A stretch of DNA of 64,000 bases, taken from assembly GCA_001887945.1 (NCBI GenBank), contig LDOQ01000076.1, forward strand, positions 1 through 64,000. Reading direction: 5' to 3'. Made by a program: the position numbers and the translations under genes. Origin of the DNA: Spraguea lophii (lineage: Eukaryota > Microsporidia > Spragueidae). Shown in pieces: positions 14,044-63,624 of the stretch (positions are counted from its first letter, which is position 1; each line of letters opens with the position of its first letter). A model generated the notes under the pieces. The model was given only the letters and a program-made list of their open reading frames with translations. It was not told the origin of the DNA and did no database searches.

Positions 14044-15250
14044 ATGGTAAATATTATATAATTTTTATATATTTTGATATATTTTAATAATTTCATTTAT
14101 ATTCCTTTGATATACGAATAATTAATTATTTAAAAATATTTTATAATTATTTATTTTAATTTATCTTCTTAAGTAAAATAAAAATTATATTTTGTATAAT
14201 ATTTTCTAATTAAAAAATTTTATATCTTAAACGTATTATTACGATAAAAACTACTTTCTTTTCTTTTAAAAGGGAGAAAAAAACTTTATTTATTTATTGT
14301 TAGAATCTAGCAATTACTACACTCTACAGCTCGTGAAAACTAATAACCTTAGAATAAGGATATGATTTTTGACCATTTAAAACTACTTTTAAGATATTCT
14401 CAGTTACATTGACCATGTCTCTGATACTTCTCGGTTTAAAGAAAAAATTTATTTTTTTGTTAAATATTATTATGATAGAGAATATACCATTTCTAATATA
14501 ACACATTTATTTACAATATACATAATAACATAATCTATCAATAATCTATCAATAATTATTTATTATTTATTATATTTTATAATCATACGTAATTATAAAG
14601 AAATATTATTATATTTACATTGTATTAAATATCCTTAATAACAAAAATATTATAAAAATACAGAAATTTAATAGAAATTCTTTAAAATGATAATTTAAAA
14701 ATATCATAGCATTTATATTTTCATTCTTTGGATTATTATTATATTTTTTAATAATTTTATGTTATAAAATTTTATACGAACAGTGGAAGTAAGAGAAATA
14801 ATAATTCTGGATTTATTATTATAATTCTATGATATATTCTAAAATAAAAATATGTATATATGTAGCGAAATCAGTTAGTACAAGTGTTTATGAGTTTTGA
14901 TGACATTTGGTGTATTATTGATGTTGTTTATATTTTAAGCATTATTTTTTAAAAATATTATTTAACCATAAATGCATTGATAAAATATTTTATGTAAAAA
15001 TATATAACATTATTCGCATGATTATAAATCCAGATAATATAAAATTCTTAATAAGCAAATAATATTATATATTCTTGATTTTTAGACATATAAATAATAT
15101 GAATTTCATTTTATTGTTGTTTATGCAGAACATTCTAGAATATTTTAATTTTGTTTGTATTTTAAAACTATAAATACTAAATGTATTTTTATTTTATGTT
15201 TGTTTTTTTATAATGAGGGTATAAAATTAATATTTTTATAATCCCACCAT
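14044..15250. other. AT-rich spacer with a SINE tail fragment
   Basis: About 1.2 kb without a convincing gene. A 60-codon minus-strand frame at 14324-14506, starting with ATG, has a slightly richer C-terminal half (PRSIRDMVNVTENILKVV) but no family match. I leave it as doubtful. A short piece of the dispersed element lies near 14835-14915. Confidence 0.5.
14835..14915 (+). mobile_element. SINE-like element, 3' body fragment
   Basis: The segment TATGTATATATGTAGCGAAA and the following CAGTTAGTACAAG match the 3' body of the dispersed element (compare RC of 32731-32750 and + 48718-48760). The head and core are missing, so this is a short relic. Confidence 0.45.
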
Positions 15251-17665
15251 ATGAGTAATGTACAGGTATCCATTCGCTTACGCCCCTGTAAAGATTCTAT
15301 AGCTTATATAGAAAATACACAAATTTCAATTTATGGTAAATCTTATAACTTTCCATCCACATCTACTCTATATAATGTAGATTCTACCCAAGAAGATGTA
15401 TTTGTAAATAGTGTTCAACCAGTGATAGATAGAAGTTTAGAAGGTTATAATTCAACAGTAATGGTATATGGTCAAACAGGTAGTGGTAAAACATATACCA
15501 TGGGTATAGGTCTAGATGTTATTACTGAAAGAGAATATGGTATTGTACTTAATAGCTTAGAATACATATTTAACAAAGGAGAACATAGTGTTAGTTGTAC
15601 ATTTATAGAAATTTATAATGAAAATGTATATGATCTTCTTAACAAAAGAAATAAATTGGTTTTAAGAGAAATTAGCAATGAAGTTATTGTTTGTGGTGTA
15701 AGTGACATAAATTTAAATTGTATGGAATCTGCTAAAGAATTAATAAAAAGAGCTTGTTTAGAGAGAACTACCAAAAATACAAAAATGAATAATGCATCTT
15801 CTAGATCTCATGCTATTTTTACTGTTACTCTTACAAAAAATATAGATGATAATTATTTAGTTTCAAAAATAAATTTTGTAGATTTAGCAGGATCTGAGAG
15901 AATAAAAAAATCGGGTGTCATTGGTGAAAAAGTAAAAGAGGCAATAAATATTAATCAGGGTTTATTGTCCCTTGGGAATGTAATAAATGCTTTATACCAC
16001 AGGGATAATCATATACCTTATCGTTCTTCTAAAATAACAAGAATCCTTCGATCTTCTCTTGGAGGAAATTCATCTACTCTTTTTATAGCTTGTATAAATC
16101 CATCTAATGATGATATATCAGAAACACAAAATACTTTAAAATATGCTTTAAGAACTACTTCAATATCAAATAAAGTAGAAAGGAATAAAGAAATAGATAA
16201 AAATAAAATATGTCAAACAGAACAAGCTAATGAAATAAGAAGATTAAAACAAGAAAATATATTTTTAAAACAACAAATAAAAGATTATCAGAAATTTAAT
16301 AATCAAGTAGAAAATAAAGAGAATAAAATTCTTGAACAGAAAATAATACATTTAGAAAAAATAATAAATGAATATAAAAATACAACATGTAAATGTATGA
16401 AGAAGAATATTGATAATAAAAATAATAACAATATAATAGAACATAATAACAACAATACAATACAACATAGTAATGATATTAAGAATATTGATAATGATAA
16501 TAATAACAATATTAAAATGAATATTAAAACAATACAACGTAATAATGAAATGAATATTAAAAATAAAAGAAAAGTATCGTTTAATCTTGAAGAGAAAGTA
16601 AAATTTATAAAGAAAGAAGATAAAATAAGATTCTTAAGTACGAATAAAATACCCATCAAAAATAATTTAATCGAAAATAATTTTAAGGATTTAAATGAAC
16701 AAAAAGAAAATTATAATAAAGATTTATCTAAAAATGTCAGTGATATAAATATTAATCTTTATAGAAATATTCCCAATAAAATAAATGATAAAAAATTTAC
16801 ACGTAATAATGAAGATACTAAAAATAATATTTTAAATCCTACTAAGAAAATACAATTAAACACTGTTATTTCATTAGAAGATCATAGAAATTCTATATCT
16901 GAAGTATTATTTAATAATCATTTATACAGCTCTTCTTTGGATGGAAGCGTTAGAAAATGGGATTTAGATAAAAATAAAAGTCAAATAATGATAGAAGAGA
17001 AAGATCCTATAAAAAATATATCAGGTAAAGATAAAATATATTACAGTTGTAAGAATAAAATAGGATTATTGGAAGAAGGTAAAGAAATATTTAAATATTC
17101 TTCTGATATCAGTAATATTTTTATAGAAGATAATTTATTATTCTGTGGACATGAGGATGGGTGTATAAGTATGACTGATATAAGAAAAGGAATGTGTTGG
17201 AGTAAGAGGGTTCATAGAGGTACAGTGTTTAAAGTATTAAAATATAATAATGAAATATTCAGTTGTAGTAGAGATCATTCTGTAGGTGTTAGTGAAGGAA
17301 TGGATGGTATTGGATTTAGAATGCTTAAACCTCCTCATTATGATTCTGTTCATGTGCTTTTAGAATCCAATGGATGTTTAATTACTGGTGGTAGAGATTG
17401 TTCATTAAAAAAATGGAATATAAATTCTGGTTTAGTACAAAAAACTATACCCTATGCTCATGATAGTTGGATTAGATGTGGTTATAAATTAGAAGATGGT
17501 TTTTGTACAGGGGCTAAGGATGGTTCTATGGTATTTTGGGATGTAGATAAGAGTATTACAGAAAAATATAAATTTTATGTTGATGGTTGTATTAATAGTA
17601 TAGTAGAAAATAATTATAATTATTTTGTAGGCTGTCAGAATAAGAAGATTTACGTTGTAAGATAA
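15251..17665 (+). CDS. Kinesin motor protein with C-terminal WD40 domain (kinesin-4/KIF21-like)
   Basis: An 804-residue protein. The N-terminal kinesin motor (about 1-310) has the P-loop GQTGSGKT at 74-81, switch I NNASSRSH at 180-187, switch II DLAGSE at 211-216 and the tubulin-binding stretch YRSSKITRIL at 257-266. A coiled coil follows (about 315-375). Next is an Asn/Ile/Lys-rich low-complexity linker (about 385-540). Then come WD40 repeats to the C-terminus (for example SSLDGSVRKWDLDK, CGHEDGCISMTDIR, TGGRDCSLKKWNIN, TGAKDGSMVFWDVD). A motor plus WD40 tail is the architecture of KIF21 kinesins, which walk to microtubule plus ends and dampen growth. The start follows a CCCACC box (15243-15248). 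Confidence 0.92.
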   Translation: MSNVQVSIRLRPCKDSIAYIENTQISIYGKSYNFPSTSTLYNVDSTQEDVFVNSVQPVIDRSLEGYNSTVMVYGQTGSGKTYTMGIGLDVITEREYGIVLNSLEYIFNKGEHSVSCTFIEIYNENVYDLLNKRNKLVLREISNEVIVCGVSDINLNCMESAKELIKRACLERTTKNTKMNNASSRSHAIFTVTLTKNIDDNYLVSKINFVDLAGSERIKKSGVIGEKVKEAININQGLLSLGNVINALYHRDNHIPYRSSKITRILRSSLGGNSSTLFIACINPSNDDISETQNTLKYALRTTSISNKVERNKEIDKNKICQTEQANEIRRLKQENIFLKQQIKDYQKFNNQVENKENKILEQKIIHLEKIINEYKNTTCKCMKKNIDNKNNNNIIEHNNNNTIQHSNDIKNIDNDNNNNIKMNIKTIQRNNEMNIKNKRKVSFNLEEKVKFIKKEDKIRFLSTNKIPIKNNLIENNFKDLNEQKENYNKDLSKNVSDININLYRNIPNKINDKKFTRNNEDTKNNILNPTKKIQLNTVISLEDHRNSISEVLFNNHLYSSSLDGSVRKWDLDKNKSQIMIEEKDPIKNISGKDKIYYSCKNKIGLLEEGKEIFKYSSDISNIFIEDNLLFCGHEDGCISMTDIRKGMCWSKRVHRGTVFKVLKYNNEIFSCSRDHSVGVSEGMDGIGFRMLKPPHYDSVHVLLESNGCLITGGRDCSLKKWNINSGLVQKTIPYAHDSWIRCGYKLEDGFCTGAKDGSMVFWDVDKSITEKYKFYVDGCINSIVENNYNYFVGCQNKKIYVVR

Positions 17666-21440: not shown

Positions 21441-21913
21441 AATGAAATTTTTATTTATAGAAGTTCCCTTGCTAATTACGATTTATACTGTGGTATATGA
21501 CATTTGGTTTTTAAAATATATTTAAATTTATATCAATTGGTTTCATTGTAGATATGCATTAATCTCATCTTACCTTATATTCTAGAATGTTAGAATTTTG
21601 TGTATGCTGAATCATCATTCTATAATCTTTAATAAGATTCTAATATCTTTCTTAACATATAATATTGGTTTAGTCGCAAATCAATACAGGGATTACAATT
21701 ACACTAGCTAAACACTATTTTAATCTAGTAATGGGACCGTCATACAAGGCCTGGACAATGCTACACTATCGAACCCTCACCCACTTAAGAATCTTTCTAT
21801 TCTCTTCTGCCTTTTATTATTATTTTTCTGAAAAATCTTCAGAGTGTGAGAGTCAAACTCACTAGACTTAGGATTTGGTTATCATCTCATGACTACTGAA
21901 CCAGGTGGGCTGC
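21441..21913 (-). mobile_element. SINE-like element, near full length (copy A)
   Basis: Read on the minus strand, it begins with a tRNA-like head with a box A-like CTGGTTCAGTAG and a box B-like GAGTTTGACTC. An A-rich AATAATAAAAGGCAGAAGAG linker follows, then the conserved core (ATTGATTTGCGAC in reverse), then the 3' body and the tail TTCTATAAATAAAAATTTCA. It aligns over its whole length with the copy at 32631-33114. Box B is mutated from GGTTCGAATCC, so transcription is doubtful. Confidence 0.75.
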
Positions 21914-32630: not shown

Positions 32631-33114
32631 TTAAGAAGCTTTTATTTATCAAAGCTTCCTGGCCGGTTGCGGCCTACCATGGTCTGTGACCTTCGGTTCC
32701 TCGAGCGAAATTAAGCTTGTACTAACTGGTTTCACTACATATATGCATTAATCTCATCTTACCTTATGCTCCAGAGTGTTAGGATTTTGCGTATGGTGCG
32801 CGTCGCCGCCCCCACTTCCAGCTCTTAAGGAATTCCCAGCCTCTTTCGTTGCATAGTATTGGCCGAGTCACAAATCAATACAGGGATTGCAACTACATCA
32901 GCTAAACACTACTTTGATCTAGTAGCGGGGCCGTCGTACAAGGCATAGCTATGCTGCGCTATCGAAACCTCACCCACTCAACAACCTTTTTCTTCTCTTC
33001 TGCGTTTATTATTATTATTTTTTTTTTGTTTTGAAAATTTTTTCTGGATGAGGGATTCGAACCCGCCAGGCTTGGGGTTTGGTTACCACCCCACGACCAC
33101 TGGGCCAGGCGGGA
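32631..33114 (-). mobile_element. tRNA-derived SINE-like element, best-preserved copy (copy B)
   Basis: On the minus strand the element starts with a tRNA-like head: box A TGGCCCAGTGG, a GGGGT...ACCCC stem and box B GGTTCGAATCC, the canonical spacing of a Pol III type-2 promoter. Next come an A-rich (AAT)n/GCAGAAGAGAAG linker and a unique body with the core GTATTGATTTGTGACTCGGC. The 3' segment TGTAGTGAAACCAGTTAGTA and a tail ending in AAGCTTTGATAAATAAAAG follow. It is much richer in G+C than its surroundings and codes for nothing. It looks like the youngest of the family copies here. Confidence 0.82.
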
Positions 33115-33143
33115 CTAATATTAACATAATAAATAATAAAATT

Positions 33144-38644: not shown

Positions 38645-39114
38645 TTTTGCTGAGTAATGGTGGGACGGTAGTCAAATCTAATGTTAACGGGTTCGAATCC
38701 CCCACCTATAAGAATTTTCAAAAAAAGCAGAAGAAAATATAAGAAAAGAAAGGTTGTTGTGTGAGGGAGGGTTCGGTAATGTAACATTAATTATATTCTA
38801 TACGACGGAATACTATTGATTAAAATAGTATTTAGTTGAAATGGTTGCAATCTCTGTATTGATTTGTGACTCAGCCAATATTATACCAAGCAAAAGAGGT
38901 TAGAATCTCATTAAAGATGATGGAATGATGATTATGCCATACATAAAATTTCAACACTGAATATAGATAAAATAAAATTAATATATATCTGTAACGAAAC
39001 CAGTTAATACAAGTTTAAATATCATTTAGGAATCAAATGTCATAAACCGTAATAGCCTATAACTGGACAGAAAACTTCTATAAACAAATAATTTTAATAA
39101 ATAAAAGTTTTATT
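38645..39114 (+). mobile_element. SINE-like element, near full length (copy C)
   Basis: A tRNA-like head with an intact box B (GGGTTCGAATCC at 38689-38700) and a weaker box A (TTGCTGAGTAATGG). Then come the A-rich GCAGAAGAAAAT linker, the core GTATTGATTTGTGACTCAGCC (38855-38880 region), ATCTGTAACGAAACCAGTTA and the tail TTCTATAAACAAATAATTTTAATAAATAAAAG. Same orientation as copies D and F. Confidence 0.78.
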
Positions 39115-42149: not shown

Positions 42150-42535
42150 AAATTTTAAAATAAAAAATGATATAACAAAAGTGATTGAGTGGATGAATGT
42201 TTGGTAATGTGACTTTGTTGTGTCTTATATGACAATTCTATTACCAAATTAAAGTAGTAGTTAATTGATAATGTTATAATTTTTATAATGATTGATGACT
42301 TGGTTAATATTATATTAAGAATTATTAGAATCTAAATAAATTAAAACTGACGGTGTTGTATACCAGATACAAAATTATAACATTTTAGAGTATAGGTTAA
42401 GATAAAGATAATTCTTAAATGTAGTGAAACCAGTTATTATAAATAATTCGTATTTGAGGAACCAACAGTCTTAAATCATACTGAAATGTATTCCGACGAA
42501 ATAATTTTACATTTTAAAGTTTTATTTAAAAATAA
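42150..42535 (+). mobile_element. SINE-like element, head missing and degenerate (copy E)
   Basis: From GATTGAGTGGATGAATG onward it follows the family body: TACCAAATTAAAGTAGTAGTTAATTGAT, ATGATTGATGACTTGGTTAATATTATATTAAG, GTAGTGAAACCAGTTATTAT and a tail ATTTTAAAGTTTTATTTAAA. The tRNA-like head cannot be recognised. Confidence 0.65.
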
Positions 42536-48385: not shown

Positions 48386-48838
48386 CTGCTTAACTGAGTG
48401 GTTATGGGATGGTAATTAAATCTCAAGCCTGGCTTCAAATCCCCATCCAGAAGAATTTACAAAAAAAAAGATTAAAAGAAGGAAAAGGCTGTTGAATAAG
48501 TGTGAATTGGATAAGTGTAATAATAGATACACCCTGTACGGAACCCGTTATTGGACTAAAATAATATCAACTGATATAATTGCAACCCCTGTATTTATTT
48601 GTGACTCAGTTGGTGTTATGGCAAACAAGAGATTAGAAATCTTTAAGGAATTGGAAAAGAAATGTGCACATACGTAAAATCCCAACGTTCAGGAGCACAA
48701 GGTAAGATTATATTAATGCATATTTGTAACGAAATCAGTTAGTACAAGCTTAAACATGTTTCGGAAATTAAATAACGCAGACCACAATAAGCTGCAATTA
48801 GTCAGGAAATTACGATAAATAAAAGTTTTACTTAAATA
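48386..48838 (+). mobile_element. SINE-like element, near full length (copy D)
   Basis: Head TGCTTAACTGAGTGG (box A region), then CTTCAAATCC in place of box B, and the AAAAAAGATTAAAAGAAGG linker. Core TGCAACCCCTGTATTTATTT and GTGACTCAGTTGG follow, then AATGCATATTTGTAACGAAA, CAGTTAGTACAAGCTTAAAC and the tail ACGATAAATAAAAGTTTTAC. A short open frame inside it (48492-48677) is accidental. Confidence 0.75.
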
Positions 48839-50101: not shown

Positions 50102-51162
50102 GCCTTGCTTCCGGGTATTATTATTTAAAATAAAAAGATCAATATTCTTGACATTTTTTACTAGAAGATTTATTATATAAAATTATATATTTAAATTCTA
50201 GAATGTATAATGCTTTCTATTTAATTTTAGATAATATCTTATTTAATTTTGTAGTTTTTAAAAAAATAATTTTTCTAATACTTATTTTTTTATTAATAAA
50301 ATATTGTTTGGTTGTTTCCATATTACTTGTTCTCTTAAAAATTTTTGATAATATTCATTTAAATCTTCATAAGCGATATTGTATGATATACATATGAAAT
50401 GAAGAATTTATTTCATCGGAAATGATATAAATATATAATCAGTGGCATTTTATATTTCATAATAAATACTGAATAAGATAAAATTTAATGGGGATAGAAA
50501 AAGTTAAAAGATTTTTGAAGATAAAATTTTTTATTAGATACACAAAAATAAATTGCAATTTCATTTGTTACAGGATTAGCTTATGTTCAAAAAGGATTTA
50601 AATCTGATTAAAATACAATGTAGAGGACGATATGAATCGTATCACTAACAAGACCATGTGATAAGATAAGGTCAATATGTAGTAATAGACCTAATTATTA
50701 TTAGATAATTATGTTTTAAGTAACCAATAATACAAACAATGTAGGTGTTATTAAATAAGATACTTTAATAGTAAATGAATGTTATTTTAAAAAAAGTTTA
50801 CCTATGCGTATTTATGTTGGGTAAATTTGAAATCGACAAATTTCATAATATAGGATAATTTAACGTAACAGTTATTTATTTTGTATTTTTTATATAAAAA
50901 TAATAAAATCGAATAAAAAATGCTTTCGAAAATTTTATCATTTTGAAAATTCTAAAATTGAATGGGGAAACTTATAACATTGACATTAACCTGCCTAGTT
51001 TAATTACAGAATAATTTTTTTAAATGATGAGTAGGAAAAGCTCGTTAATACATCCCTAAATGGAGTCTAAAGTCAAATTTCAAATATAAATAATACTGAA
51101 TTTTTTCTGTTCTCGAGGATTTTTCATATTTTCTTGATAATACTTTAATTATTCTCAAAATG
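50102..51162. other. AT-rich spacer
   Basis: A 64-codon hydrophobic frame at 50203-50397 (plus) begins with ATG but consists of Leu/Ile/Phe runs without a pattern I would call a gene. No RNA gene seen. Confidence 0.4.
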
Positions 51163-51505
51163 CTCGGGCCGGATACAGCTCATCGTCGTATGAAGTCGTT
51201 GATTTCTTAAAGTACGAATAGTTTGTATCGATTAATCTTGTTATAAATATACACCAACTTCATCTTCATTTATTATCCTAAGCGTTATGATTTTGAATAT
51301 AATCCACATCCTTGCCCGAATTCTTAATGTAATATTAATGAAATCCCAAGTTAATATAAAAATTATGACTATATAAACTAAATACTGTTTTGATCCAGGT
51401 AGAGTGGCATACAAAACATAATTAAAGTCGCATTATTATATCCTCACATATTTTATTTACATTCACCTGCTTCATCTGAGATTTTATTCTTTTTTTTGCT
51501 TTTAA
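51163..51505 (-). mobile_element. SINE-like element, degenerate copy without head (copy H)
   Basis: In the minus orientation it follows the family body: CATCTTCATTTATTATCC then AGCGTTATGATTTTGAATATA, TAAACTAAATACTGTTTTGATCC and CATACAAAAC match copy B at 32755-32945. The tRNA-like head is absent or unrecognisable. Confidence 0.6.
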
Positions 51506-51514
51506 ACTTTACAA

Positions 51515-51602
51515 AGACTTAAGAACCGAAGGTCATAAACTATAATAAACCGCAATCGGTCAGAAAACCTCTATAAACAAAAGTGTTATTTAAAAAAAAT
51601 CT
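51515..51602 (+). mobile_element. SINE-like element tail, opposite strand to copy H
   Basis: AAGAACCGAAGGTCATAAAC, then ATAAACCGCAATCGGTCAGA and CCTCTATAAACAAAAGTGTT reproduce the element tail (compare 48755-48835). It abuts copy H in opposite orientation, so two insertions are nested or joined. Confidence 0.6.
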
Positions 51603-53914: not shown

Positions 53915-54240
53915 ATACCTTGTTATGACGGTATTACTACTAGATTAAAGTAATGTTTAGCTGGTGTAATTGCAATTCTTGTGTTAATTAGTGATTCGCC
54001 CAATATTATATCAAGAATGGATTTGAAATCTCATTAAGACTATGAATGGCGATATTACGCATTATACGCAAAATCAGATGTTCTGGGGTATAAAATAAAA
54101 TAATATTAATGCATATCTATAGTGAGATTAGTTAATACAAGTTATTTGTGCTTTAAGGAACTAACAGTATCAAATTTAATAGACAACAACCGGTCAGAAC
54201 ATTTGATAATAATTAAACTGTTATTTGGAAAAATTTTATC
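53915..54240 (+). mobile_element. SINE-like element, head missing (copy F)
   Basis: Begins near TACCTTGTTATGACGG. It holds the core AGCTGGTGTAATTGCAATTC, TTGTGTTAATTAGTGATTCG and CCCAATATTATATCAAG, then ATGCATATCTATAGTGAGAT and TTAGTTAATACAAG. The tail is ACAACCGGTCAGAACATTTG followed by ATAATAATTAAACTGTTATT. Confidence 0.68.
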
Positions 54241-63284: not shown

Positions 63285-63624
63285 TTATTATAATACATAT
63301 CTATTGATCTTATCTTATTTTATGTTTTTAAAATGTTAAGGTTTTGTGTATGCTTCTTTAACGATATAATTAAATTCAATCACCTTTCTTTCTATAATGT
63401 TGGCTAAGTCGTCGATATAGATATTAACCAATTAAACATTATGTTAATCTAATAATGAGATAAACAAACAAGGAAAATTCAACTTACATTATAAACTCCT
63501 CGTCCACGCAAATTAAAACATTTTCTTCTTTGGTGTTTTTTTATTTTGAAAAAATTTCTAATTGATGAATTCTCATTTGTTAGAGTTGATATTCGATTAC
63601 CATAACCATTGATCCAAGCGTGCA
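63285..63624 (-). mobile_element. SINE-like element, degenerate (copy G)
   Basis: In the minus orientation it starts with a decayed tRNA-like head (TTGGATCAATGGTTATGGTA, where GATCAATGG stands at box A). An A-rich linker with AAAGAAGAAAATG follows, then the body (GGCTAAGTCG, ATGTTGGC, ATAAGATAAGATCAATAG). The last third and the tail are lost. Confidence 0.55.

Follow-up and report, generated by a model that had tools for sequence, protein, structure and literature searches.

A tRNA-related SINE family in the genome of the microsporidian Spraguea lophii

Within a stretch of 64,000 nucleotides of the Spraguea lophii contig LDOQ01000076.1 (positions 1 to 64,000, corresponding to C7:1-64000 of the searched assembly and called the window here), one non-coding sequence of about 470 bp recurs in at least eight copies or large pieces, which raises the question of what kind of element it is. 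Microsporidia are a textbook case of genome reduction. An abundant and partly young SINE in a genome of 5.27 Mb would mean that LINE trans-mobilisation works there and, if true, that non-coding parasitic DNA could still spread in a reduced genome. The repeat is very probably a tRNA-related SINE, which means a retrotransposon, neither coding nor autonomous, of about 484 nt followed by an A-rich tail, as had been proposed from the letters of the window and their open reading frames (the sequence-only reading). It is a new family of a known kind and of an ordinary type, found in an unexpected host. The sequence-only reading had also named three observations that would speak against a SINE, namely copies confined to the window, coding capacity in the consensus, and a longer autonomous element as parent of the copies; all three were looked for and the results support the interpretation as a SINE.

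A profile made from 42 young copies of the genome matched ten pieces in the window with E-values from 1.6e-185 to 0.00035 (nhmmer), among them all eight stretches reported earlier, and gave no match in the reversed window. The best match is a young, 5'-complete copy on the minus strand at 32634..33115 (E 1.6e-185, profile 1-479 of 484). Its boundaries, originally given as 32631-33114, were corrected, as the element starts at 33115 with the G preceding TCCC. Nearly full length are also three old copies at 21441..21909 (minus strand, E 4e-69, 71.8% identity to the consensus), 48390..48831 (plus strand, E 5.5e-57, 68.2% identity) and 38649..39088 (plus strand, E 3.5e-46, 66.8% identity). Further old pieces lie at 53918..54209 (plus strand, profile 170-467, E 7.2e-31), 42176..42478 (plus strand, profile 123-433, E 3e-15, 60.4% identity), 51152..51502 (minus strand, profile 84-467, E 5.9e-08) and 63298..63621 (minus strand, profile 4-371, E 1.4e-06). 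An old 3' piece at 51521..51590 (plus strand, profile 412-481, E 1e-06) stands beside 51152..51502 in the opposite orientation, and a 35-nt fragment is found at 14852..14886 (plus strand, profile 365-399, E 0.00035, 90.9% identity over 33 nt). When 32631-33114 was used directly as query against the window, five other stretches of 81-475 nt with 67-75% identity were found, together with three shorter ones. The SINE pieces cover 3208 of 64000 bases (5.0%) of the window, which has a GC content of 0.227. They occur in both orientations and, as had been noticed, only in spacers: they overlap by 0 bases with open reading frames of at least 100 aa, though such frames make up 59% of the window, and none of 2000 random placements had as little overlap.

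The window also codes for a lipin protein, whose relatives among the matches listed (best 120 of 501) reach at most 43% identity at a coverage of at least 95%; the named ones near the top of these best 120 of 501 come from Encephalitozoon, Ordospora, Nosema, Astathelohania, and Vittaforma. This agrees with a microsporidian that has no close named relative in the database searched. Another protein of the window carries PF17020 (DUF5097), and a single open reading frame of 804 aa at 15251-17662 combines a kinesin motor domain with a C-terminal WD40-like region.

The family extends far beyond the window. In the whole assembly (5,273,041 bases, 73 contigs), patterns of the young form matched 128 times for the head (at most two mismatches), 177 times for the middle (at most three) and 158 times for the tail (at most two), with 0 matches of the reversed controls, hence well over a hundred copies exist and not those of the window alone. 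A DNA search of the assembly listed 427 candidates at first look; 40 of them were scored and 43 matches were returned; 40 of these 43 are full-length with 96-100% identity, the window copy at 32634..33115 included, which itself is 96-99% identical to the 39 other scored copies. The 42 full-length copies that were aligned, which are the best-matching ones and no random sample, share a mean pairwise identity of 97.5% (minimum 91.2%) and a mean identity of 99.0% to the nearest neighbour. Five old copies of the window have only 60-72% identity to the consensus. Since old and young copies are present in the same genome, the SINE family looks long resident and recently active. Ten pieces were counted in the 64,000 bases of the window vs five in 75,651 bases at loci chosen for their reverse transcriptases or tRNA genes, and by extrapolation the genome would hold several hundred SINE pieces in total.

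The consensus of the 42 full-length young copies has 484 nt and a GC content of 0.465. It shows no coding capacity, as its longest stop-free stretch is 94 aa (on the minus strand) and only 22 aa when counted from a Met. Its first ~72 nt form the tRNA-related head, which contains both predicted Pol III boxes of the sequence-only reading: the A box TGGCCCAGTGG of the internal promoter at consensus position 9 (33097..33107, minus strand) and the B box GGTTCGAATCC at position 53 (33053..33063, minus strand), both identified from their sequence by the common A and B box consensus. Compared with 41 of the 57 tRNA genes that were found in the assembly, the head is most similar to tRNA-Arg(TCG) with a score of 43 vs a shuffle maximum of 24, tRNA-Leu(TAG) being nearly equal with 40. 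The designation tRNA-derived is backed by the two boxes and this similarity, but no cloverleaf is left: neither ARAGORN nor Rfam RF00005 detected one in the head, and on its own the head is no more stably folded than shuffled sequences (z -0.53). A SINE need not keep a cloverleaf.

The head is followed by an A-rich linker with a TTTT at position 79 (33034..33037, minus strand), which is a possible weak Pol III terminator and could cut transcription short, a point that counts against the reading as a SINE. The longest T run at this place is T4 in 36 of the 42 copies, T3 in five and T5 in one. All 31 tRNA genes whose 3' flank was read have a run of at least T4 starting within 8 nt, and the first such run is T4 in three of them and T5 or longer in 28. 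Because of this preference for at least T5 in 28 of 31 tRNA genes, the T4 inside the SINE is probably leaky as a terminator in this genome. Beyond position 79, no four consecutive T occur in the consensus.

The 3' part appears to be structured. In the window copy, a terminal hairpin predicted from the sequence, GAAGCTTT...AAAGCTTC, with AATAAA in its loop and 3' arm, lies at 32635..32658 (minus strand); in the consensus AATAAA is located at position 467. For the final 146 nt of the L002 copy the predicted fold has a z of -2.75, and 0 of 200 shuffled sequences were as stable. One pair of the final hairpin varies among the copies (G.U in 33 of 42, A-U in five, G-C in one), which is suggestive of pairing, at a single position though. 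Genome-wide, the family ends with ...ATAAATAAAAGTTTCATTCGT and an A-rich tail. The 3' end given in the sequence-only reading is corrected accordingly: the family ends with ATTCGT followed by the A-rich tail. The window copy is 99.4% identical to the L002 copy over query positions 1-481 and differs from it in the final bases. The body gave no match beyond chance in Rfam; up to an E-value of 1 only two weak matches to the element appeared, one to CrcZ, which falls chiefly on the A-rich linker, and one to tmRNA, whose 13 nt are those of the T-loop. A ribosomal origin of the body was considered, as its 3' part resembled LSU rRNA by eye, and was dropped as Rfam gave only these two weak matches.

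The DNA that was fetched contains 93 distinct pieces, and the insertions were studied on the 54 that reach 88% identity or more and include a 3' end. The SINE-like behaviour claimed at the outset is borne out here: exact direct repeats of at least 9 nt flank 41 of these 54 young copies, vs 2.4% of 1052 mismatched flank pairs. The repeats are 9-17 nt long, most commonly 14 nt (14 of 41), and 39 of the 41 copies carry zero to two extra nucleotides at the 5' junction. ATTCGT is reached by 51 of the 54 copies, and 50 of these 51 continue with at least five A. Of the 54 copies, 41 start at position 1 and one at position 2; the other 12 do not start before position 13, and a contig or locus end cuts three of these, including C72:146684, which starts at 261. 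Repeats of at least 9 nt are kept in six of the nine informative 5'-truncated copies, the smallest being a 29-nt remnant at C4:76858 with a repeat of 16 nt. Two further truncated copies were seen on C47 and C48, one of them with a visible repeat. The 13 of 54 copies without an exact 9-nt repeat, which speak against the reading as a SINE, include the window copy, whose best exact flanking repeat has 6 nt only and whose 3' end is atypical for the family, as well as copies at contig ends and a pair on C1. Repeats of variable length, an A-rich tail and 5' truncation together are the mark of LINE-type target-primed reverse transcription. The base ahead of the repeat is a pyrimidine in 35 of 41 cases; since measuring the longest repeat beside an A tail largely excludes A at this place, no preference for an insertion site is claimed.

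A LINE, on whose machinery such a SINE would depend, is present in the assembly. A search for RVT_1 gave nine stretches, of which three are surrounded by long direct repeats, two belong to one TERT-like protein and the rest are decayed or cut. At C72:3-1439 (minus strand), a 479-aa open frame runs off the contig, with an upstream piece in another frame. Its Pfam matches are below the curated cut-offs (RVT_1 with E 0.0018, PF14529 with E 0.0019, PF03372 with E 0.0015), and its residues 360-467 match LINE-1 ORF2p chains with E 1.3e-9 to 2.5e-9. A wider family search with the C72 protein led to reverse transcriptases and endonucleases with 28-39% identity among the five best, and PF14529 searched across the genome found nothing. 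The GC content of this LINE (0.43) is close to that of the SINE (0.46), and both are out of line with the genome. Decayed relatives of the LINE are present on C48 and C1. An L1-like, APE-type LINE as on C72 is most likely the partner of the SINE. The usual proof of such a partnership would be a 3' tail common to both, and the low-scoring Pfam matches and the missing PF14529 hit count against this model. Identity to the C72 protein is 29-39% in its three best relatives, and no recent LINE donor is visible among them. The other decayed reverse transcriptase, on C5, is matched in the genome by two short relatives only.

The C72 LINE is also what speaks for regarding the copies as internally deleted or truncated forms of a longer autonomous retrotransposon, as its GC content is similar (0.43 vs 0.46) and it is cut by the contig end, so that its reverse transcriptase half and its 3' end lie outside the assembly. 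This explanation is nonetheless very improbable: 41 of 54 young copies share one start position and open with a Pol III-type head, and a comparison of the SINE with the C72 LINE stretch gave no significant similarity. Moreover, among 32 places that were fetched by the tail alone (of 158), 30 continue into the SINE body, one is the 29-nt remnant and the last, C11:5516 (one mismatch), lacks the SINE body, and neither a LINE nor another recognisable coding sequence was found at any of them. A longer autonomous parent element was not found in the assembly. The exact 3'-end pattern of the SINE also had no match in viral_contigs, a collection from which records near this genome may be absent.

Even less probable is that the copies belong to a MITE, some other DNA transposon of the non-autonomous kind, or a small element of LTR type containing a tRNA-like portion. 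The element is short, non-coding and present in many copies, as MITEs are, and MITEs have been described in Nosema (PMC4405373), but its direct repeats vary in length (9-17 nt), it has an A-rich tail and 5'-truncated copies, and the ends of the consensus, GTCCC... and ...TTCGT, are by eye not inverted repeats. That the copies are instead genes of a non-coding RNA family with many members, or segmental duplications, without any mobile element would agree with the intact Pol III-type boxes and the stable 3' fold and has similarly little chance of being true, as most copies (41 of 54) are surrounded by direct repeats of their own, five old copies of the window, changed mostly towards AT, are down to 60-72% identity, and Rfam gave no match beyond chance.

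For the SINE, a cycle of the following kind is most likely. Pol III would start at the head via the internal A and B boxes, read through the weak internal T4 and terminate at a run of T in the flanking DNA on the 3' side. The resulting RNA would have a structured 3' region and end with an A tail. The LINE's endonuclease and reverse transcriptase would then nick the target, prime on the nick and copy the RNA, resulting in direct repeats of ~14 nt and sometimes in a 5'-truncated copy.

By description, the element resembles AfuSINE2 of Aspergillus fumigatus, which likewise has a tRNA-related head and short target-site duplications, there of 4-14 bp (PMC5063351); the likeness is one of structure, and the host group differs. 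With the mammalian T+ SINEs, described as carrying AATAAA, a Pol III terminator and an A tail (PMC8466645), it shares the AATAAA near the A-rich tail. Unlike these, it has no 3' terminator of its own, only the TTTT at 79 and the AATAAA at 467. Non-LTR elements are already known from the host group: four LINE families were reported in Anncaliia algerae (PMC4202319), and the LINEs of Trachipleistophora hominis carry frameshifts (PMC3486916). The expectation that such elements are not a standard part of microsporidian annotation was nearly right, the exception being an unspecified SINE class of 28,669 bp (0.18%) in Nosema bombycis, which is known from a table entry that gives no structure (PMC3614468). 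The word SINE is absent from the main texts of PMC4202319, PMC7313128, PMC12558613, and PMC3486916, and the literature searched, mostly open main texts, contained no structural description of a microsporidian SINE.

The old copies of the window show 68-99 changes from GC to AT vs 16-30 from AT to GC each. Singletons point in the same direction, with 43 GC>AT in 9450 GC sites vs 18 AT>GC in 10878 AT sites, which would correspond to an equilibrium GC content of about 0.27, estimated from few counts. A RIP-like mutation was not adopted as explanation, as the 34 C>T / G>A singletons have no clear context bias. In 60 of 336 columns, at least three of five old copies share a non-consensus base; as 52 of these 60 columns are GC>AT and recurrent decay can explain most of them, no older subfamilies are claimed. 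The copies are ready markers, since their decay reveals the local mutation spectrum, and scoring which isolates carry a given copy would yield clean characters for phylogeny. A more far-reaching view, which we consider rather unlikely, would be that of a long-resident and still active SINE/LINE pair, with a SINE that has twice the GC content of its host despite AT-ward mutation, favours the 3' flanks of tRNA genes and rearranges the genome by recombination between copies.

Old SINE copies follow directly after the terminator T run, in the same orientation, at the tRNA-Lys gene C47:5473-5545 (L041 1043-1573), and the same arrangement is found 3' of the tRNA-Ala gene C45:103444-103515 (L133). 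These are two of 32 tRNA 3' flanks seen, 29 of which comprise 45-50 nt only, and the 3' flank of tRNA genes is a possible insertion hotspot, noticed after the fact. Two inverted copies at locus L053, C1:142815-143300 (minus strand) and C1:143893 (plus strand), have swapped flanking repeats of ~14 nt and 12 nt; a recombination that inverted the intervening segment would give this picture, and so would a misassembly. Identical 5' flanks of 33 nt precede the copies at C1:213343 (L054) and C52:213 (L121). A matching repeat follows the tail of the C52 copy but not that of the C1 copy, which indicates either an exchange between copies or a chimeric contig.

Among the other reverse transcriptase loci, L044, L045, and L046 contain elements of LTR type, whose direct repeats measure 220, 260, and 245 nt, respectively, and are 97-98% identical. 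Presumably these are Ty3-type elements, and judged from their repeats they are probably young too. L048 2722-6396 (C2) codes for an Asn-rich protein of 1224 aa with RVT_1 matches, which by eye resembles a telomerase reverse transcriptase. A different repeat of ~190 nt is present at C48:23720-23912, beside a SINE and the decayed LINE, and at ten further places, with 73-78% identity between places. Finally, at least seven contigs (C15, C22, C25, C54, C56, C58, C60; loci L068, L112-L117) start inside a SINE copy, and the SINE is therefore probably one cause of breaks in the assembly; six of them start ~118 nt ahead of the tail, as expected from a break in a short-read assembly.
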